Shown here: positions 153-58,705 of the stretch, piece after piece
Layout: each line of letters starts with the position of its first letter
How positions within the stretch are numbered: position 1 is the first letter of the stretch
Program-made: the position numbers and the translations under genes
Notes under the pieces: generated by a model
The model's input: the letters and a program-made list of their open reading frames with translations, nothing else
Database searches by the model: none
What the model was told of the DNA's origin: nothing
DNA from: Bacteroidaceae bacterium
GTDB taxonomy: Bacteria; Bacteroidota; Bacteroidia; Bacteroidales; Bacteroidaceae
DNA: 64,000 bases
Reading direction: 5' to 3'
Assembly (NCBI GenBank): GCA_017470525.1
Contig: JAFUYM010000060.1
Span: forward strand, 1 to 64,000

Positions 153-352
153 TCCTCCAAACTGCCTTTATATAAAGAAGAATTGCTTTTCTTTCCAAAG
201 TTACGAAGAAATTCATATTCCACCACCCTGCGAAAGTTAAATAAAATTAAAAAGTCTGTTTTCCCTCTTTTTCATCCATCAGTGGGCGTTTTTCCCCTCT
301 TTTCCTCTCTCCAACTTGGCAAGAGACTGGCTGCCCATTTCATTCCACTCAA

Positions 353-430
353 CACCTCTCTTTCGGACTGGAGCACTCCGATGTGTCGGACTGCTCCAGT
401 CCGATGAAGCGCACTGCTCCAGTCCGATTT
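353..430. repeat. Triple palindrome, 23-bp period, family A copy 1
   Basis: Three 17-bp units of the type CGGACTGCTCCAGTCCG lie at 364-380, 387-403 and 410-426, separated by 6-bp spacers (ATGTGT, ATGAAG), so each unit starts 23 bp after the last. Each unit is a hairpin with arms CGGACTG/CAGTCCG and a 3-base centre. A second copy lies in opposite orientation at 29121-29198; both share the flank CACCTCTCTTT (here 353-363). The match over flank and units shows a dispersed element rather than a local duplication. Confidence 0.85.
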
Positions 431-483
431 TCATCTTCTGATAGACTTGTTTTTCAAGTTTCGGGAGTTATTTTCGCCTGCGG

Positions 484-613
484 CGGACGAAGAAAAAACA
501 GGAAAAAACAAATAAAAACAGAGAAAAACATGTTCTTCGTCTAACAGAAATGAAACAAGAAAGACTTGTTTTTATTTGTTTTTACTTATTTTTTTCTGTT
601 TTTCTTTCGTCAC
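484..613. repeat. Inverted array of 10-bp A/T-rich repeats
   Basis: Positions 491-530 are four consecutive 10-mers of the form NNNAAAAACA. Positions 568-607 hold the complementary type (TGTTTTTATT and relatives), also in a 10-bp period. The outer ends GACGAAG (486-492) and CTTTCGTC (604-611) are nearly complementary, so the whole can fold as a long imperfect hairpin with a loop of about 36 bases. No open reading frame uses it. Confidence 0.6.
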
Positions 614-774
614 GCGAAGCGTAAAAAAACATCCGAAAGTTAAGTTTGTTTCTATTGCCCAAAATAAATCAGAACCGTCACCCAATATGAAGAAAACAGA
701 CGAGGAAAGAATGAAAAAGGGGGACAAAATGAAAAAATAATCATCAAGTTCGTGTGTGGGTGAGATTTTTTTTG

Positions 775-782
775 TAATTTTG
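775..782 (+). promoter_or_regulatory. -7 box of ppiD
   Basis: TAATTTTG matches TAnnTTTG and lies 98 bases before the ATG at 881. The -33 element is not clear. Confidence 0.5.
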
Positions 783-880
783 CATGATTTTGCGATTTCA
801 TGCACGGTCGCTCCGCACCATGAACCCGCAAAACAACCACACATTGTTAATAATATCAATTCAATAAAACAAATCAAAAA

Positions 881-3031
881 ATGGCAGCATTACAAAAAAT
901 CAGAAGCAGGGGCGTGCTCCTTGTGACCATCATCGCCGTGGCGTTGTTCCTTTTCGTCGCCGGCGACTTATTCAGAGGCCTTGAGAGCCTCTTTCAGCAG
1001 TCAAGCCAGCAAATTGGCGAAGTGAATGGTAAGAGCGTCTCCATCCAGGACTATCAGAAACTGGTGGACGACATGCAGACTTACTACGAAATCGTACAGC
1101 AGAAGAGTTCTTTCAGCGAGGACGAACTGAACCGCATCAAGGATGAGGCTTGGCAGACTTACGTGCAGCAGCAACTCATCCAGAAGGAATGTGAAGAACT
1201 GGGTATCGGTGTCAGCGACGAAGAAATCTCCGAGGTCGTGAAGAGCGGCTTCAGCCAGATGTTGCAGGTGCCTGTCTTCATGAACCAGCAGACGGGTCGC
1301 TACGACTATTCAGCAGTGAGCGCCTTCCTGACCGAGTACAAGAAGTTGAAGGATGCCGGCACACAGGTTCCTGACGAATACGAGAAAATCTACAAGTACT
1401 ACCTGTTCGCACAGCGTCAGATCCGCGACCAGTTGCTCACTCAGAAGTATCAGGTGCTGCTTTCGCAGATGTTCCTCTCCAACCCTGTTGAGGCTAAGTT
1501 GGCATTCGACAGCCGTGCAGACGAGTCAGACCTCCTGCTCGCCGCCATTCCCGCATCTTCTGTAAAGGATGACGACGTGAAGGTGACCGACGAGGAAATC
1601 AAGGCTAAGTACACTGAAAACAAGGAACAGTACAAGCAAGTGGTGGAAACACGCGACATCAAGATGATTGATGTGCAGGTGGTGGCAAGCGACGCCGACA
1701 AGAAAGCAGCCGAGAATGAAATGAAGGACGCTGCTGCCAAGTTGACCGCAGCAACCAGCAGCGCGACTGCTGGCAACGTGGTTCGCCAGTTGGCTTCTCT
1801 CATCCCCTACTCTGACGTTTACAAGACAAAGGATGCCTTCCCTAACATGATTTCTTCTGCCCTCGATTCTACGGCAGTGGGCACGGTGAAGGCTGCGGCA
1901 TTCGACCCAATGACCAACACTTACTACACCTACAAGGTGCTGGGTAAGGAAACTCAGCCAGACTCAGTGCTCTTCCGCCAGATTGGTGTGATTGGCAAGG
2001 ACGATGCAGACATCGCCAAGAAGGCTGACAGCATCATGACCGCTCTGAGCAGTGGCGCTAACTTCAAGGACATCGCCAAGAAGTACAACCAGACTGGTGA
2101 CTCCACTTGGATTGCTTCTTCACAGTTCCAGAACGCATCGATTGATGCAGACAACGCACTCTTCATCAACACACTCTTCGGCATGAACGCCAACGAGAAC
2201 AAGAAACTGAAACTGGAAAACGGTGCAACCGTGATTCTTCAGGTGATGAAGACAGCCAACCCTGTCACAAAATACAATGTGGCTTCCATCGTGAAGGAAC
2301 TGAAGTTCTCTGACGAGACCTACAACAAGGCATTCAATGATTTCTCTTCCTTCGTGGCAGCAAACACGACCCTCGAGCAGGTTGAGGCAAATGCAGCCAA
2401 GAGCGGCTACACCGTTCGTCCTATCAACGACGTGACAGCGGCTTCTCACGGCATTGCCAACATCCGTGCCACCCGCGACGCTCTGAAGTGGGTGTTCGAC
2501 GAGGCTAAGGTAGGCGATGTGTCTCCGCTCTACGAGTGTGGCAGCAACGACCACCTCTTGCTGGTTGCCTTGACAGGCATCAACAAGGAAGGTTACCGTT
2601 CCATGGACAAACTGAAGGACGAACTGACCGAGGAAATCAAGAAAGAGAAGAAAATTGAGAAGATTTATGAAAGCGCAAAGAATGCCAAGAGCATAGCTGA
2701 TGCCAAGAACTTCACAGCCGCTGTTGTGGACACCGTGAAGCACGTGACATTCAGCGCGCCAACCTTCATTTCTGCAACGGGTGCATCCGAGCCTATCGTC
2801 AGTGCAGTGGCAGCCAAGACCGCCAAAGGTGCTTTCGCAAATGCCATCAAGGGCAAGAACGGCGTTTATTTCTTCCAGGTGCTCAACAAGACCAAGACCG
2901 CCGAGAAGTTTGATGCCAAGGCTGAAGAGTCATCACTGGCAGCAACCAACTTCCGCAATGCCTCCAGTGTCATCCTCAACACACTCTACCAGAAGGCAAA
3001 CGTGAAGGACCGCCGCTACAAGTTCTTCTAA
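881..3031 (+). CDS. ppiD: PpiD/SurA-type peptidyl-prolyl isomerase, inner-membrane anchored
   Basis: This 716-residue protein is a periplasmic folding factor of the PpiD class. It has a short cytoplasmic N-terminus (MAALQKIRSRG), one membrane segment at about 12-31, a SurA_N-like chaperone region to about 200, and a PpiC/parvulin-like region around 345-450 (YKVLGKETQPDSVLFRQIGV onward). A long alpha-rich C-terminal half follows. The length is close to that usual for Bacteroidota homologues. In the family the protein assists outer-membrane protein maturation at the inner membrane; prolyl isomerase activity of this copy is inferred, as parvulin domains of PpiD proteins can be inactive. It is a single-gene unit between its own -7 box and a strong terminator. 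The ATG is the first of the frame and directly precedes the membrane anchor. Confidence 0.85.
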   Translation: MAALQKIRSRGVLLVTIIAVALFLFVAGDLFRGLESLFQQSSQQIGEVNGKSVSIQDYQKLVDDMQTYYEIVQQKSSFSEDELNRIKDEAWQTYVQQQLIQKECEELGIGVSDEEISEVVKSGFSQMLQVPVFMNQQTGRYDYSAVSAFLTEYKKLKDAGTQVPDEYEKIYKYYLFAQRQIRDQLLTQKYQVLLSQMFLSNPVEAKLAFDSRADESDLLLAAIPASSVKDDDVKVTDEEIKAKYTENKEQYKQVVETRDIKMIDVQVVASDADKKAAENEMKDAAAKLTAATSSATAGNVVRQLASLIPYSDVYKTKDAFPNMISSALDSTAVGTVKAAAFDPMTNTYYTYKVLGKETQPDSVLFRQIGVIGKDDADIAKKADSIMTALSSGANFKDIAKKYNQTGDSTWIASSQFQNASIDADNALFINTLFGMNANENKKLKLENGATVILQVMKTANPVTKYNVASIVKELKFSDETYNKAFNDFSSFVAANTTLEQVEANAAKSGYTVRPINDVTAASHGIANIRATRDALKWVFDEAKVGDVSPLYECGSNDHLLLVALTGINKEGYRSMDKLKDELTEEIKKEKKIEKIYESAKNAKSIADAKNFTAAVVDTVKHVTFSAPTFISATGASEPIVSAVAAKTAKGAFANAIKGKNGVYFFQVLNKTKTAEKFDAKAEESSLAATNFRNASSVILNTLYQKANVKDRRYKFF

Positions 3032-3067
3032 ACAACTGCTCACCGGATTTACACATTATTTATATAT

Positions 3068-3104
3068 AAGGGGCGCAAGGATAAACTTTGCGCCCCTTGT
3101 TTCG
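3068..3104 (+). terminator. Intrinsic terminator of ppiD
   Basis: AAGGGGCGCAA (3068-3078) and TTGCGCCCCTT (3088-3098) form a perfect 11-bp stem with a 9-base loop, followed by a T-rich tract. Confidence 0.85.
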
Positions 3105-3197
3105 TACACAAGCCATCTTGAAAATCGGGAGTGCGAGAAGGAAAAACATGTGTTTTTAAAGATTATTGTGCAAAATAACATTTTTTTTCAAAAAAAA

Positions 3198-15884: not shown

Positions 15885-16009
15885 TTGAGATTGGAACTGC
15901 CACATAATCTTTCTTTGTTTCATCTCATAGCATTTTCATCCTAAGACCCTACTTTTTGTGTCGTTTTGCAAAAAAAAAATAAATATGTGAGACTTTTTTT
16001 GTATATTTG
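15885..16009. repeat. Long direct repeat, left copy
   Basis: About 125 bases match 16547-16678 with few differences. The copy starts TTGAGATTGGAAC, runs through a shared CATTTTCATCCTAA and TTTTTGTGTCGTTTTGC segment and ends near a -7-like box. Its first 18 bases correspond to the last codons of the DUF2442 gene in the right copy, so this is the remnant of a second gene copy. Confidence 0.85.
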
Positions 16010-16017
16010 TACAGAGA

Positions 16018-16049
16018 TTTGACAGAGAAAGATAAATTTGCTATCTTTG
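16018..16049 (+). promoter_or_regulatory. Promoter of the DUF4160-DUF2442 pair
   Basis: TTTG (16018-16021) and TATCTTTG (16042-16049) are 20 bases apart; two further TAnnTTTG matches lie at 16002-16009 and 16033-16040. Confidence 0.75.
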
Positions 16050-16569: not shown

Positions 16570-16678
16570 TCTTTGCTCTATCTCATGGCATTTTCATCCT
16601 AAAACCCTGCTTTTTGTGTCGTTTTGCAAAAAAGGTCTTGCATATTATAAAATATGTGAGACTTTTTTCGTATCTTTG
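16547..16678. repeat. Long direct repeat, right copy
   Basis: This is the right partner of 15885-16009. It begins inside the DUF2442 gene and ends at the -7 box used by the oad operon, so the repeat brings a gene end and a promoter. An insertion of about 15 bases (GTCTTGCATATTATA region) distinguishes it from the left copy. Confidence 0.85.
16671..16678 (+). promoter_or_regulatory. -7 box of the oad operon
   Basis: TATCTTTG, 40 bases before the oadG ATG, at the edge of the right direct repeat. Confidence 0.6.
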
Positions 16679-16717
16679 CATCGTTTTTTAACGTAGAAAG
16701 ATTAAGATTTACAGAAT

Positions 16718-23845: not shown

Positions 23846-23853
23846 CTGTTTTG

Positions 23854-23925
23854 TAGCGCCTACGGGAATCGAACCCGTGTTCCATGCGTGAGAGGCATGT
23901 GTCCTAGCCGCTAGACGAAAGCGCC
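23854..23925 (-). tRNA. tRNA-Glu(CUC), copy 2
   Basis: The 72-nt cloverleaf has acceptor GGCGCTT/AGGCGCT with G-U pairs, anticodon arm CATGC-CTCTCAC-GCATG (anticodon CTC, codon GAG) and T arm ACGGG-TTCGATT-CCCGT. CCA is not encoded. It is identical to 23941-24012. Confidence 0.95.
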
Positions 23926-23940
23926 GTGATTGTCTTTTTG

Positions 23941-24012
23941 TAGCGCCTACGGGAATCGAACCCGTGTTCCATGCGTGAGAGGCATGTGTCCTAGCCGCTA
24001 GACGAAAGCGCC
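23941..24012 (-). tRNA. tRNA-Glu(CUC), copy 1
   Basis: All 72 bases match the copy at 23854-23925; the two are separated by 15 bases, showing a recent tandem duplication. Both follow tRNA-Ser in one transcription unit. Confidence 0.95.
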
Positions 24013-29120: not shown

Positions 29121-29198
29121 AAATCGGACTGCTCCAGTCCGACGTGCCGCACTGGAGCAGTCCGATGTGTCGGAGTGGAGCAGTCCGAAAGAGAGGTG
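29121..29198. repeat. Triple palindrome, 23-bp period, family A copy 2
   Basis: 17-bp units at 29125-29141, 29148-29164 and 29171-29187 with 6-bp spacers. It is the reverse complement of the element at 353-430, sharing the CACCTCTCTTT flank (reverse strand, 29188-29198). Unit centres (CTCC or GGAG) and one spacer (ATGTGT or ACACAT) are inverted relative to the other copy. Confidence 0.85.
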
Positions 29199-29200
29199 CT

Positions 29201-29254
29201 GAAAGCGCGCTTTCCTGGACTTGTCCCCGGCAGGGCTGATGGAAGCCCCGCCTA
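29201..29254. other. Palindrome and hairpin after the small Cys-protein gene
   Basis: GAAAGCGCGCTTTC (29201-29214) is a perfect palindrome. GGCAGGGCT with AGCCCCGCC (about 29229-29253) is a hairpin directly at the stop of the next gene on the minus strand. No T run, so terminator function is uncertain. Confidence 0.4.
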
Positions 29255-31101: not shown

Positions 31102-32580
31102 ATGGCAACAGAATTGAAAGACCTGACCAAGCGGTCAGAGGACTACTCGAAGTGGTATAACGAATTGGTGGTGAAGGCTGAATTGGCTGAACAAGCCGAT
31201 GTGAGAGGATGTATGGTGATTCGTCCATACGGATATGCAATTTGGGAAAAGATGCAGCGAGTGCTCGACGATATGTTTAAGGAGACAGGGGTACAGAACG
31301 CTTATTTTCCCTTGCTCATTCCAAAGAGTTTCTTAAGCAAAGAGGCTGAGCACGTGGAGGGTTTTGCCAAGGAGTGTGCAGTGGTGACTCACTATCGACT
31401 GAAGACCAACGACACACATGACGGCGTGGTGGTTGACCCTGCCGCTAAATTGGAAGAAGAACTGATTATCCGTCCCACTTCGGAAACCATCATCTGGAAC
31501 ACTTATAAGAACTGGATTAAGTCTTACCGTGACCTCCCTATCCTGTGCAACCAATGGTGTAACGTGATGCGCTGGGAGATGCGTACCCGCCTGTTCCTGC
31601 GCACTTCTGAGTTCCTTTGGCAGGAGGGTCACACGGCTCACGCCACTCGCGAGGAGGCTGAAGAGCGCACCAAGCAGATGATTGGCATTTATGCCAAATT
31701 TGCAGAAGAATACATGGCAGTTCCGGTGATTCAGGGTGTGAAGAGTGAGACAGAGCGTTTTGCAGGAGCACTCGACACTTACACGATTGAAGCCATGATG
31801 CAAGACGGCAAGGCTCTGCAGAGCGGTACGAGCCACTTCCTCGGTCAGAACTTCGGTAAAGCATTCGACGTGCAGTTCCTCAACAAGGACAACAAACCTG
31901 AATATGCTTGGGCAACTTCATGGGGGGTATCGACCCGACTGATGGGTGCACTCATCATGACCCACTCCGACGACAACGGTCTCGTTTTGCCTCCACGGTT
32001 GGCTCCGCTGCAGGTGGTCATCATCCCCATCGGTAAGGGAGACCAGATGGCTATGCTCGACGAGAAGGCTGAGGCGATTGTAAAGAACCTCAAGGCAATG
32101 GGCATCAGCGTGAAGTACGACAATGCCGACAACAAGCGTCCGGGCTTCAAGTTCGCCGACTACGAGTTGAAGGGTGTGCCAGTACGTCTCGTGTTGGGTG
32201 CCCGCGACTTGGAGAAGGGACTTGTGGAGGTGATGCGCCGCGACACTTTGGAAAAAGAGAATGTGTCCATCGAGGGTATCGAGGAGTACATCAAGAATCT
32301 TCTCGACGACATTCAGAAGAACATCTACCAGAAGGCTGTCACCTACCGTGATGCCCATATCTACGAATGCGACAACTACGACGAGTTCAAGGAGCGCATC
32401 AAGGATGGCGGCTTCTTCCTCTGCCACTGGGACGGCACTGAGGAAACAGAGGCAAAGATTAAGGAAGACACTCAGGCAACTATCCGTTGTGTACCGTTCA
32501 TGTTTGAACAGACAGAAGGCACCGACATGGTGAGCGGCAAACCAGCCAAGTGCAGAGTGTTGATTGCAAGGGCTTATTAA
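31102..32580 (+). CDS. proS: Prolyl-tRNA synthetase, eukaryote/archaeon-like type
   Basis: ProRS charges tRNA-Pro. The 492-residue class II synthetase lacks the bacterial INS editing domain and has the eukaryote-like layout: motif 1 around [11 protein letters not shown], motif 2 with [20 protein letters not shown], motif 3 near [22 protein letters not shown], then an anticodon-binding domain and a zinc-like C-terminal domain. This short type is typical of Bacteroidota. Monocistronic, with a -7 box upstream and a triple palindrome (32606-32666) after the stop. Confidence 0.95.
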
Positions 32581-32605
32581 AAGTTTTTTCTTTCTTATAA
32601 AAACC

Positions 32606-32666
32606 GTACCCCTCGGGTACACCATGCCGTACCCCTCGGGTACGCCACATTGTACTCGAGGGGTAC
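32606..32666. repeat. Triple palindrome, 23-bp period, family B copy 1
   Basis: 15-bp units GTACCCCTCGGGTAC at 32606-32620 and 32629-32643, and an inverted related unit at 32652-32666, with two 8-bp spacers. Each unit forms a GTACCC/GGGTAC hairpin. It lies between proS and the peptidase gene and might act as a terminator, but there is no T run. Confidence 0.85.
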
Positions 32667-32727
32667 GATAAATAACGTCTCACTTCGGGGAATCTCCTTA
32701 CCCCATCAATAAAGCAAAAAAAACGAT

Positions 32728-38625: not shown

Positions 38626-38695
38626 GATAAGCCCTGCATCGCAATTACGTTGCAGGGCTTATCGTAATTACGGTGACGGGTGCAACGTAATTACG
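38626..38695. repeat. Triple palindrome, 23-bp period, family C
   Basis: Ten-base cores CGCAATTACG (38640-38649), CGTAATTACG (38663-38672) and CGTAATTACG (38686-38695) repeat at exactly 23 bp. The first is nested in a 13-bp stem, 38626-38638 with 38651-38663, which may serve as the htpG terminator although no T run follows. Confidence 0.85.
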
Positions 38696-47771: not shown

Positions 47772-47797
47772 AAGAAAACAAACAGACCATTACAAGT

Positions 47798-47858
47798 GTA
47801 CCCCTCGACTACGCTATCTTGTAGCCGAGGGGTACACTTGTTCGTATCCGAGGGGTAT
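47798..47858. repeat. Triple palindrome, 23-bp period, family B copy 2
   Basis: 15-bp units at 47798-47812 (GTACCCCTCGACTAC), 47821-47835 and 47844-47858 (both inverted orientation), with 8-bp spacers. The layout 15-8-15-8-15 is identical to 32606-32666, but the spacers are unrelated. It sits between convergent trmD and the Na/Pi transporter gene, ending six bases from the latter's stop. Confidence 0.85.
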
Positions 47859-47864
47859 GGTCTA

Positions 47865-58520: not shown

Positions 58521-58557
58521 ATCAGTTCTTCTTTTTATGTTGTTTCATCCCCCCCTT

Positions 58558-58624
58558 ACCGACATCGTCGACATCGGTTCACCGACCTCGTCGACATCGG
58601 TCGACCGACGTCGACGAGGTCGGT
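58558..58624. repeat. Triple palindrome, 23-bp period, family D
   Basis: Three 21-bp units start at 58558, 58581 and 58604, each beginning ACCGAC and ending GTCGGT or ATCGGT around a GTCGAC-type centre, with two-base spacers. The third unit is in inverted orientation. It lies between riboflavin synthase and the SGNH gene, both minus strand. Confidence 0.9.
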
Positions 58625-58705
58625 AAAGAGGTAACGACAGAGGTGAAAAAGGACATTGAAAAAGCCGCCTCGGGGTTTCCAGCGTTGCCGCTTTCAAAGT
58701 TATGG

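Follow-up and report, generated by a model that had tools for sequence, protein, structure and literature searches.

Introduction

The closest published element that we have seen to the arrays described here is BrickBuilt, a MITE of Porphyromonas gingivalis (PMC4596501); the available part of that report records it from P. gingivalis and P. gulae. A second relevant system is IS1272, a member of the IS1182 family, which replaces inverted-repeat targets and leaves no target-site duplications, according to the available part of its description (PMC5678879). Palindromic extragenic repeats are usually defined by their sequence. Here, about ten sequence families keep one geometry.

The window analyzed is a stretch of 64,000 nucleotides from a Bacteroidaceae bacterium (GCA_017470525.1, contig JAFUYM010000060.1, positions 1 to 64,000). 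Its initial annotation reported six sites with three palindromic units each and noted that minisatellite-bearing MITEs of Porphyromonas have a repeat of similar size. BrickBuilt bears this likeness out, with a 23-nt repeat in the available part of PMC4596501. The elements of the window resemble small mobile elements, of a kind not yet described and from one gut-bacterial genus; judged by title, none of the best matches in a literature search, mostly outside subscription journals, described such elements.

Results

All six window sites were present, each with three units whose starts lie 23 bp apart, as the initial annotation had it. TRF reported a 23-bp period at four of the six. A simple palindrome scan also found four of the six, and its loosest settings returned scattered single matches at other periods. 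The features are as follows.

58560..58622, no strand: F3-type triple (main element); 17-bp palindromes at 58560-58576, 58583-58599 and 58606-58622, with 6-bp spacers
58623..58640, no strand: right inverted arm of the main element, GTAAAGAGGTAACGACAG, like the arm consensus ATTTAGAGGNTSTGAAAG by eye
58543..58559, no strand: possible degenerate left arm of the main element, TTTCATCCCCCCCTTAC, weak and by eye
364..426, no strand: F1 triple of CGGACTGCTCCAGTCCG-type units, 23-bp period, left arm CAACACCTCTCTTT
29125..29187, no strand: F1 triple, right arm AAAGAGAGGTGCTGAAAG at 29188-29205
32605..32667, no strand: F2 triple of CGTACCCCTCGGGTACG-type units, 25 bp past the stop of a prolyl-tRNA synthetase-like gene (31102-32580)
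47797..47859, no strand: F2 triple, a divergent copy flanked by convergent genes; not recovered by the blind scan and added by hand
38640..38695, plus strand: F4 triple; CGTAATTACG-type 10-bp palindrome with a 13-bp directional spacer, in three direct 23-bp repeats

The unit sequences of the remaining families, together with those named above, are given here.

F1 CGGACTGCTCCAGTCCG, F2 CGTACCCCTCGGGTACG, F3 CGACATCGACGACATCG, F5 GGGAGAGAGTCTTACCC, F6 nGGTCTGAGTCACACCn
F7 CGATGTGCTCCACATCG, F8 CGACCACGTCGTGGTCG, F9 CGCACCCGTCGGGTGCG, F10 CGATTCTATTAAAATCG, F11 CGGAGTCCCCGACTCCG

The main element is flanked by two genes, one lumazine-binding (riboflavin synthase-like) and the other GDSL-lipase-like, and its palindromy reaches two bases further out on each side, to 58558-58624. 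Read in register, this site is CGACATCGTCGACATCG plus 6 bp with two extra paired bases per side, and F2 is CGTACCCCTCGGGTACG plus 6 bp. The 15+8, 17+6 and 21+2 arrangements, which had been taken for separate layouts, are thus one 17+6 frame. The only window site with another layout is 38640 (10+13, direct repeats); other F4 copies lie at L042:243 and L141:18655, giving three in 830 kb. An Rfam search of the window returned four tRNAs at the gathering score and no family match for the elements. Apart from the arrays, the window holds two identical tRNA-Glu genes in an 87-bp tandem duplication beside a tRNA-Ser gene (23849-24012), and two direct-repeat pairs about 660 bp apart (15912-16036 and 16570-16705; 91% and 79% identical).

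In all families except F4, a 17-bp palindrome is followed by a 6-bp spacer (F6 also occurs as 17+7), normally in three units. The core is 63 bp long, with three 17-bp palindromes on 23-bp centers (24 in F6). The division into about ten families is our own grouping, in which F10 is a single element. MAFFT aligned 38 chosen elements from nine families without gaps. Among these 38, G at unit position 2 and C at position 16 are invariant in units 1 and 3 and occur in 35 of the 38 middle units; among 73 elements, the counts for units 1, 2, and 3 are 73, 69, and 71. The spacers read RYNNRY, with a pyrimidine at position 2 in 140/146 and a purine at position 5 in 138/146. By eye, a similar flanking arm accompanies F1, F3, F5, F7, and F11. 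The annotation had regarded the window arrays as four unrelated families. Instead, F1, F2, F3, and several others have a common frame, nearly invariant G/C at positions 2 and 16, and RYNNRY spacers. The simplest account of the period is descent of the families from one ancestor.

We then scanned 829,773 of the 3,236,980 bases of the host genome (G000) for three palindromic units, neighbors being alike in either orientation, at any period from 13 to 80 and blind to sequence. Period 23 accounted for 35 of the 41 sites; the other six comprised three at 41 and one each at 14, 21, and 24. By eye, L031:15866 is an ordinary tandem repeat, which leaves 34 of the 35 accepted. No sites were found in Markov-1 random sequence or in five 830-kb sets of Markov-2 random sequence. 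The suggestion of a locked period with nearly free sequence thus holds in the host. These counts are underestimates, as the scan missed the window sites 47798 and 38640. Applied to about 644 kb from 14 congeners, the scan returned 11 period-23 sites, 4 period-24 sites, and a few with periods of 15, 21, 22, and 29; we set aside one site from each of the first two groups as other repeats. The elements are short (63 to 142 bp), non-coding, dispersed, and multi-copy, at 34 accepted period-23 sites per 830 kb; F1 units alone have 106 matches across the G000 genome. Palindromic arrays of another class were set aside: L144 (21 bp, four units), L080 (21, four), L132 (22, four), L303 (22, four), L296 (22, six), and L124 (23, four). 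Arrays of 17-bp units with periods of 21 or 22 and four to six copies (L144:11503, L080:7200, L132:13892, L303:12527, L296:2133) were seen both within the genus (host genome and congeners) and in other genera of the family.

Family F6 departs from the 23-bp pitch. Its period is 23 in G000 and G015 and 24 (17+7) at L142 in the host sample and at L085, L087, and L131 in relatives. Of about 74 model matches in G031 and G034, roughly 32 span 73 bases, corresponding to period 24 (hand count), and all 16 places fetched from these two genomes carry three F6 units at that period. The rule that unit plus spacer always equals 23 therefore stands in the window and for most of the host, and fails in the congeners G031 and G034. 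In the host, other periods are rare (6/41); in G031 and G034, the frequency of period 24 approaches that of 23. As F6 is abundant at 24 in two congeners, 23 is not universal. Moreover, F6 keeps the 17-bp unit and the three copies at its longer pitch, which weakens any mechanism obliged to read 23. The annotation had proposed a spacing-reading protein, a recombinase, or an array builder, and no evidence singles one out. Three units and a 17-bp palindrome are the more general features, and 23 is the pitch of the remaining families.

Among 42 arrays in 830 kb, none has four units. Three-unit arrays number 14 for F1/F7, 9 for F2, and 4 for F5. F3 has eight triples, one true pair (L146:601), and two singles (L043); F6 has two triples and one pair (L033:7613), and F8 has one triple. 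Leftover single-unit matches, and a pair at L034 within an F7 triple, were judged from context to be chance matches or double counts. Among 33 distinct F1-like arrays, three of them from other genomes, 32 have three units. The one- and two-unit F3 variants are shorter than the three-unit form by exactly 46 and 23 bp, as would be expected if the arrays were ordinary products of minisatellite slippage with no mobile or binding role. We consider this explanation very improbable: none of the 42 arrays has four units, unlike the four- and six-unit arrays of 21 to 22 bp, the units are inverted rather than direct only, and near-identical copies are dispersed.

The orientation of the units is biased. 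In 79 elements, none of them from the covariance model, units 1 and 3 face opposite ways in 60 and the same way in 16, with 3 ties; the F3 members of this set, taken by themselves, show no preference (6 to 8). Among 118 elements with full flanks, period-24 elements being set apart, 97 are opposite, 20 the same, and 1 other, although 43 of the 118 came from the covariance model, whose sequence part could favor the commoner orientation. The middle unit is randomly oriented in these 118 (57 opposite and 60 same relative to unit 1; 56 and 62 relative to unit 3). Units 1 and 3 pair in antiparallel at 89.5% of positions, compared to 82.6% and 81.4% for the other unit pairs. The core is usually an inverted repeat around a palindromic center.

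Covariation was scored for both possible folds. Three hairpins pair in 86.3% of cells (score, 0.671 versus 0.187 shuffled), and unit 1 with unit 3 pairs in 87.7% (0.719 versus 0.198), so that three hairpins and one long stem fit about equally well. Changes on both sides that keep the symmetry occur in 228 cells, compared to 86 in the shuffles. Related sequences can surpass such shuffles, in both scores as well, even without structure. When the partners were slid, which keeps relatedness, pairing fell to 28 to 42%. The drift of unit sequence by family while dyad symmetry is kept implies that selection acts on the symmetry, possibly as a DNA dimer site, as a hairpin or cruciform used in transposition, or as an RNA hairpin.

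Outside the core, pooling the 136 arms of 68 elements (L031:15866, L124:17018, and L132:12334 set aside) revealed a degenerate inverted arm of about 18 positions, ATTTAGAGGNTSTGAAAG reading outward. F2 has no clear arm, and palindromy of its flanks is not general. Exact arm motifs lie within 30 bp of a core in 12 cases and elsewhere in 1; at up to one mismatch, the counts are 19 and 11. We rejected the arms as generic terminators because exact motifs adjoin cores in 12/13 cases, though in 19/30 with one mismatch. A compensating closing stem was also rejected. With period-24 elements set apart, pairing between the two arms does not exceed the level expected from column composition, position 1 excepted, and the arm therefore appears to be conserved as sequence, as a transposase-bound end would be. 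By eye, an arm-like motif, CACARCCTCYAA, stands three times at 23-bp steps to the left of the core at L315 (G031) and L289 (G026), as if the arm were also part of the 23-bp ladder.

The gene context is mostly, and not uniformly, as annotated. All sites had been placed between genes and 3′ of one, which suits most of 36 host elements (14 in tandem and 12 in convergent gaps) and fails for five in divergent gaps and one within the start of a called open reading frame; four lie at stretch edges. For the 31 elements between two called genes, the background of gaps of at least 60 bp, with genes called by our own script, is 183 tandem, 54 convergent, and 62 divergent (299). Convergent gaps thus hold 12/31 elements against 54/299 of the gaps, in keeping with an RNA-level structure at transcript 3′ ends, that is, clustered hairpins or one long hairpin serving as a terminator or mRNA stabilizer. 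Mean core energies, computed for up to 12 elements per family, are -33 to -44 kcal/mol in all but one of the nine families; these values, and a weak outward rise in T to 0.43-0.49 at arm positions 24 to 27, point the same way. Against it, single F3 and F5 units reach only about -3 kcal/mol and F10 cores -11, five elements sit in divergent gaps, and Rfam has no match, which together make this reading quite improbable; the sites are not ordinary terminators, an outcome that the annotation had named as a refutation. A G-U test of RNA selection was dropped, as G-U on one strand is A-C on the other. Such counts cannot decide the RNA reading because the element strand is arbitrary and not tied to transcription.

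A match to the riboflavin synthase-like gene was found in 43 genomes, and the downstream gap was read by eye in 30 loci. Three units with three different sequences occupy this gap in G000, G015, and G012; G010 has two units where G012 has three, with matching flanks, and G007 has a degenerate pair. No array was recognized in the other 25 of the 30 loci, one of which (L249) is cut short. The recurrence beside this gene can be coincidence because 36 elements are set against 299 gaps of at least 60 bp.

The host range was determined with a covariance model of the three palindromes, searched across the genus at E ≤ 0.001 with both strands counted and 111 candidates scored per genome. The model matched 25 of 45 genomes of the genus and all 14 congener assemblies with completeness of 90% or more and contamination of 5% or less; in one of these 14 (G002) the match is single and weak (2.1e-4), with no triple recognized at L276. 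In a sample of the family covering 201 genomes and 30 genera, 16 genomes matched at E ≤ 1e-5. Thirteen of them belong to this genus, a number that counts matching congeners within the 201-genome draw and is not a share of the congeners drawn. The other three belong to one other genus (g9); two of these (L284, L285) carry another family of three units at 23 bp, and the third is G118. Searches of viral contigs and plasmids with an F1 pattern, an F2 pattern, and a 201-base sequence found no match. At one mismatch, F1 is matched in 4 of the 44 other genomes. The 106 F1 units in G000, and the absence of any match in 40/45 genomes, suggest a lineage-specific burst. Separately, the F1 element of a goat-reticulum Bacteroidaceae MAG has left and right flanks like those of two different host copies (loci compared: L051, L030, L002), which suggests that the element was a point of rearrangement or that one of the assemblies is mis-joined.

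These distributions bear on the idea that the arrays are binding sites for a dimeric host DNA-binding protein, placed about 2.2 helical turns apart, with a cellular function and family-specific specificities. The dyad symmetry with its two-sided changes, the nearly invariant G/C at positions 2 and 16, the center spacing fixed within a family, the three units, and the RYNNRY spacers would all suit such sites. We nevertheless regard them as rather improbable: F1 reaches high numbers in one genome and has matches in just 4/44 others, the gap beside one conserved gene has different units or no recognized array, and F6 is spaced at 24.

Part of the superfamily has defined outer ends. In eleven host F3 elements, both ends are GAGGGTGTGTCAAAA / TTTTGACACACCCTC, allowing two mismatches. 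Elements with both ends measure 141 bp (six), 140, 132, 118 (two units), and 95 bp (two, one unit each), forming a ladder of 95, 118, and 141 bp for one, two, and three units. An F8 element of G015 (L209, 142 bp) has GAGGGTGTGTCAAAA at both ends; L211 (F8), L158, and L210 (both F6) have it at one end only, and it was not seen in F1, F2, F5, or F7. These 15 bases are the terminal repeat of an IS1182-family insertion sequence in congeners. The insertion sequences that open with GAGGGTGTGTCAAAA are 1,850 bp (L204, complete), 1,385 bp (L203, transposase incomplete), and 2,956 bp (L205) long, the last split by an IS256-type gene, and their open reading frames match the IS1182 family (L204 against NF033551, E=1.3e-138). 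The L205 element (237-3192, G027) is an IS1182-type element interrupted by an IS256-type (variant zinc-binding) transposase gene.

The elements, at up to 142 bp, encode no IS1182 transposase. NF033551 gave no match in G000 at E ≤ 0.001 and exceeded the cut-off in 5/45 congeners and in two (G041, G043) of the 16 element-richest genomes, defined by at least 70 strand matches of the covariance model. G009 has 18 exact terminal-repeat matches, many near contig ends, and no transposase match, which suggests that assembly gaps may hide copies. No target-site duplication was convincing; the best of 2,220 combinations was a 3-bp match in 6/68 elements, where 1.2 were expected. Immediately beyond the ends of F3 elements, the flanking base is complementary in 10/11 by eye. 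We rejected palindromic flanks as IS1182-style targets, which this base fits in F3 and which are not general in F2. A comparison of orthologous gaps yielded no clean empty site: the presence/absence pair G031 L315 and G034:C6 is not clean, and the G031/G034 search gave no clean case.

The lack of a convincing target-site duplication would also suit REP/BIME-like palindromes mobilized, as single-stranded hairpins, by a Y1 (RAYT) transposase, as would intergenic, multi-copy palindromes. Y1_Tnp matches occur in 20/45 congeners, including one in G000 (L104). However, of the 16 element-richest genomes (70 or more strand matches of the model), only 4 have one, and the 62 kb of sequence surrounding the Y1 matches contains no period-locked triple. 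The palindromes beside the Y1 genes of two congeners are other repeats by eye (L102, L105), and the available part of PMC3733652 describes REPs as singles, pairs, and clusters of variable spacing. RAYT was rejected as the mover on the Y1_Tnp distribution and the missing triples, and we hold this origin to be quite unlikely. The RAYT-like genes of G025 and G004 (L102, L105) are bordered by palindromic repeats of their own, around TGGATAATCAAGGGGTCTGACCCCTTGATTATCCA and CGCACTTTAGTGCG.

Discussion

On balance, we favor as the probable explanation a genus-specific superfamily of small, non-coding, non-autonomous, MITE-like palindromic elements. In our model, the outer two units, usually inverted to each other, would make the core an inverted repeat whose center, the middle unit, is palindromic and may face either way. 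The geometry would be inherited and constrained, and sequence families would come and go. The F3 and F8 elements, closed at both ends by GAGGGTGTGTCAAAA, and F6, closed at one, would be moved by an IS1182-type transposase supplied in trans; for this subset such movement is probable, on the strength of the terminal repeats.

It is unlikely, in our estimate, that propagation of the elements depends on machinery recognizing shape and spacing rather than sequence, namely three 17-bp dyads at a fixed pitch with the outer pair inverted and the middle one flippable. If this were true, new sequence families would arise repeatedly under one recognizer, and the identity of an element would be its geometry. 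One geometry in about ten sequences is a natural experiment on whether sequence, hairpin, or spacing is recognized. It offers a testable pattern, with outer units inverted 97 to 20 and the middle unit 57 to 60. As the covariance model matches 14/14 well-assembled congeners, the elements could be used as markers and to seek the recognizer.

Among known systems, BrickBuilt is, in the available part of its report (PMC4596501), similarly intergenic, multi-copy, and MITE-like, with a 23-nt repeat unit (24 also occurs in F6) and, like the F3, F6, and F8 subset, IS-like ends. It differs in having 1 to 22.8 direct tandem units, where the elements here have at most three; one repeat consensus, as opposed to about ten unit families; and ends that are GAGACCTTTGCA-type and of the IS5 family, compared by eye with the IS1182-type GAGGGTGTGTCAAAA. 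BrickBuilt also has leader and tail segments. The F3, F6, and F8 ends match an IS1182-family insertion sequence, the family of IS1272, which also lacks target-site duplications; unlike IS1272, with its stem-loop-replacing transposition (PMC5678879, available part), the elements here encode nothing. As described in the available part of PMC3733652, the RAYT-linked REP and BIME sequences are likewise short extragenic palindromes in many copies whose families differ between genomes. The elements described here differ from them in their fixed number and period, their inverted arms, and the lack of any RAYT association seen; by inspection, the GTAG/CGTC end tag of REPs is absent, and the units of most families begin and end with CG.
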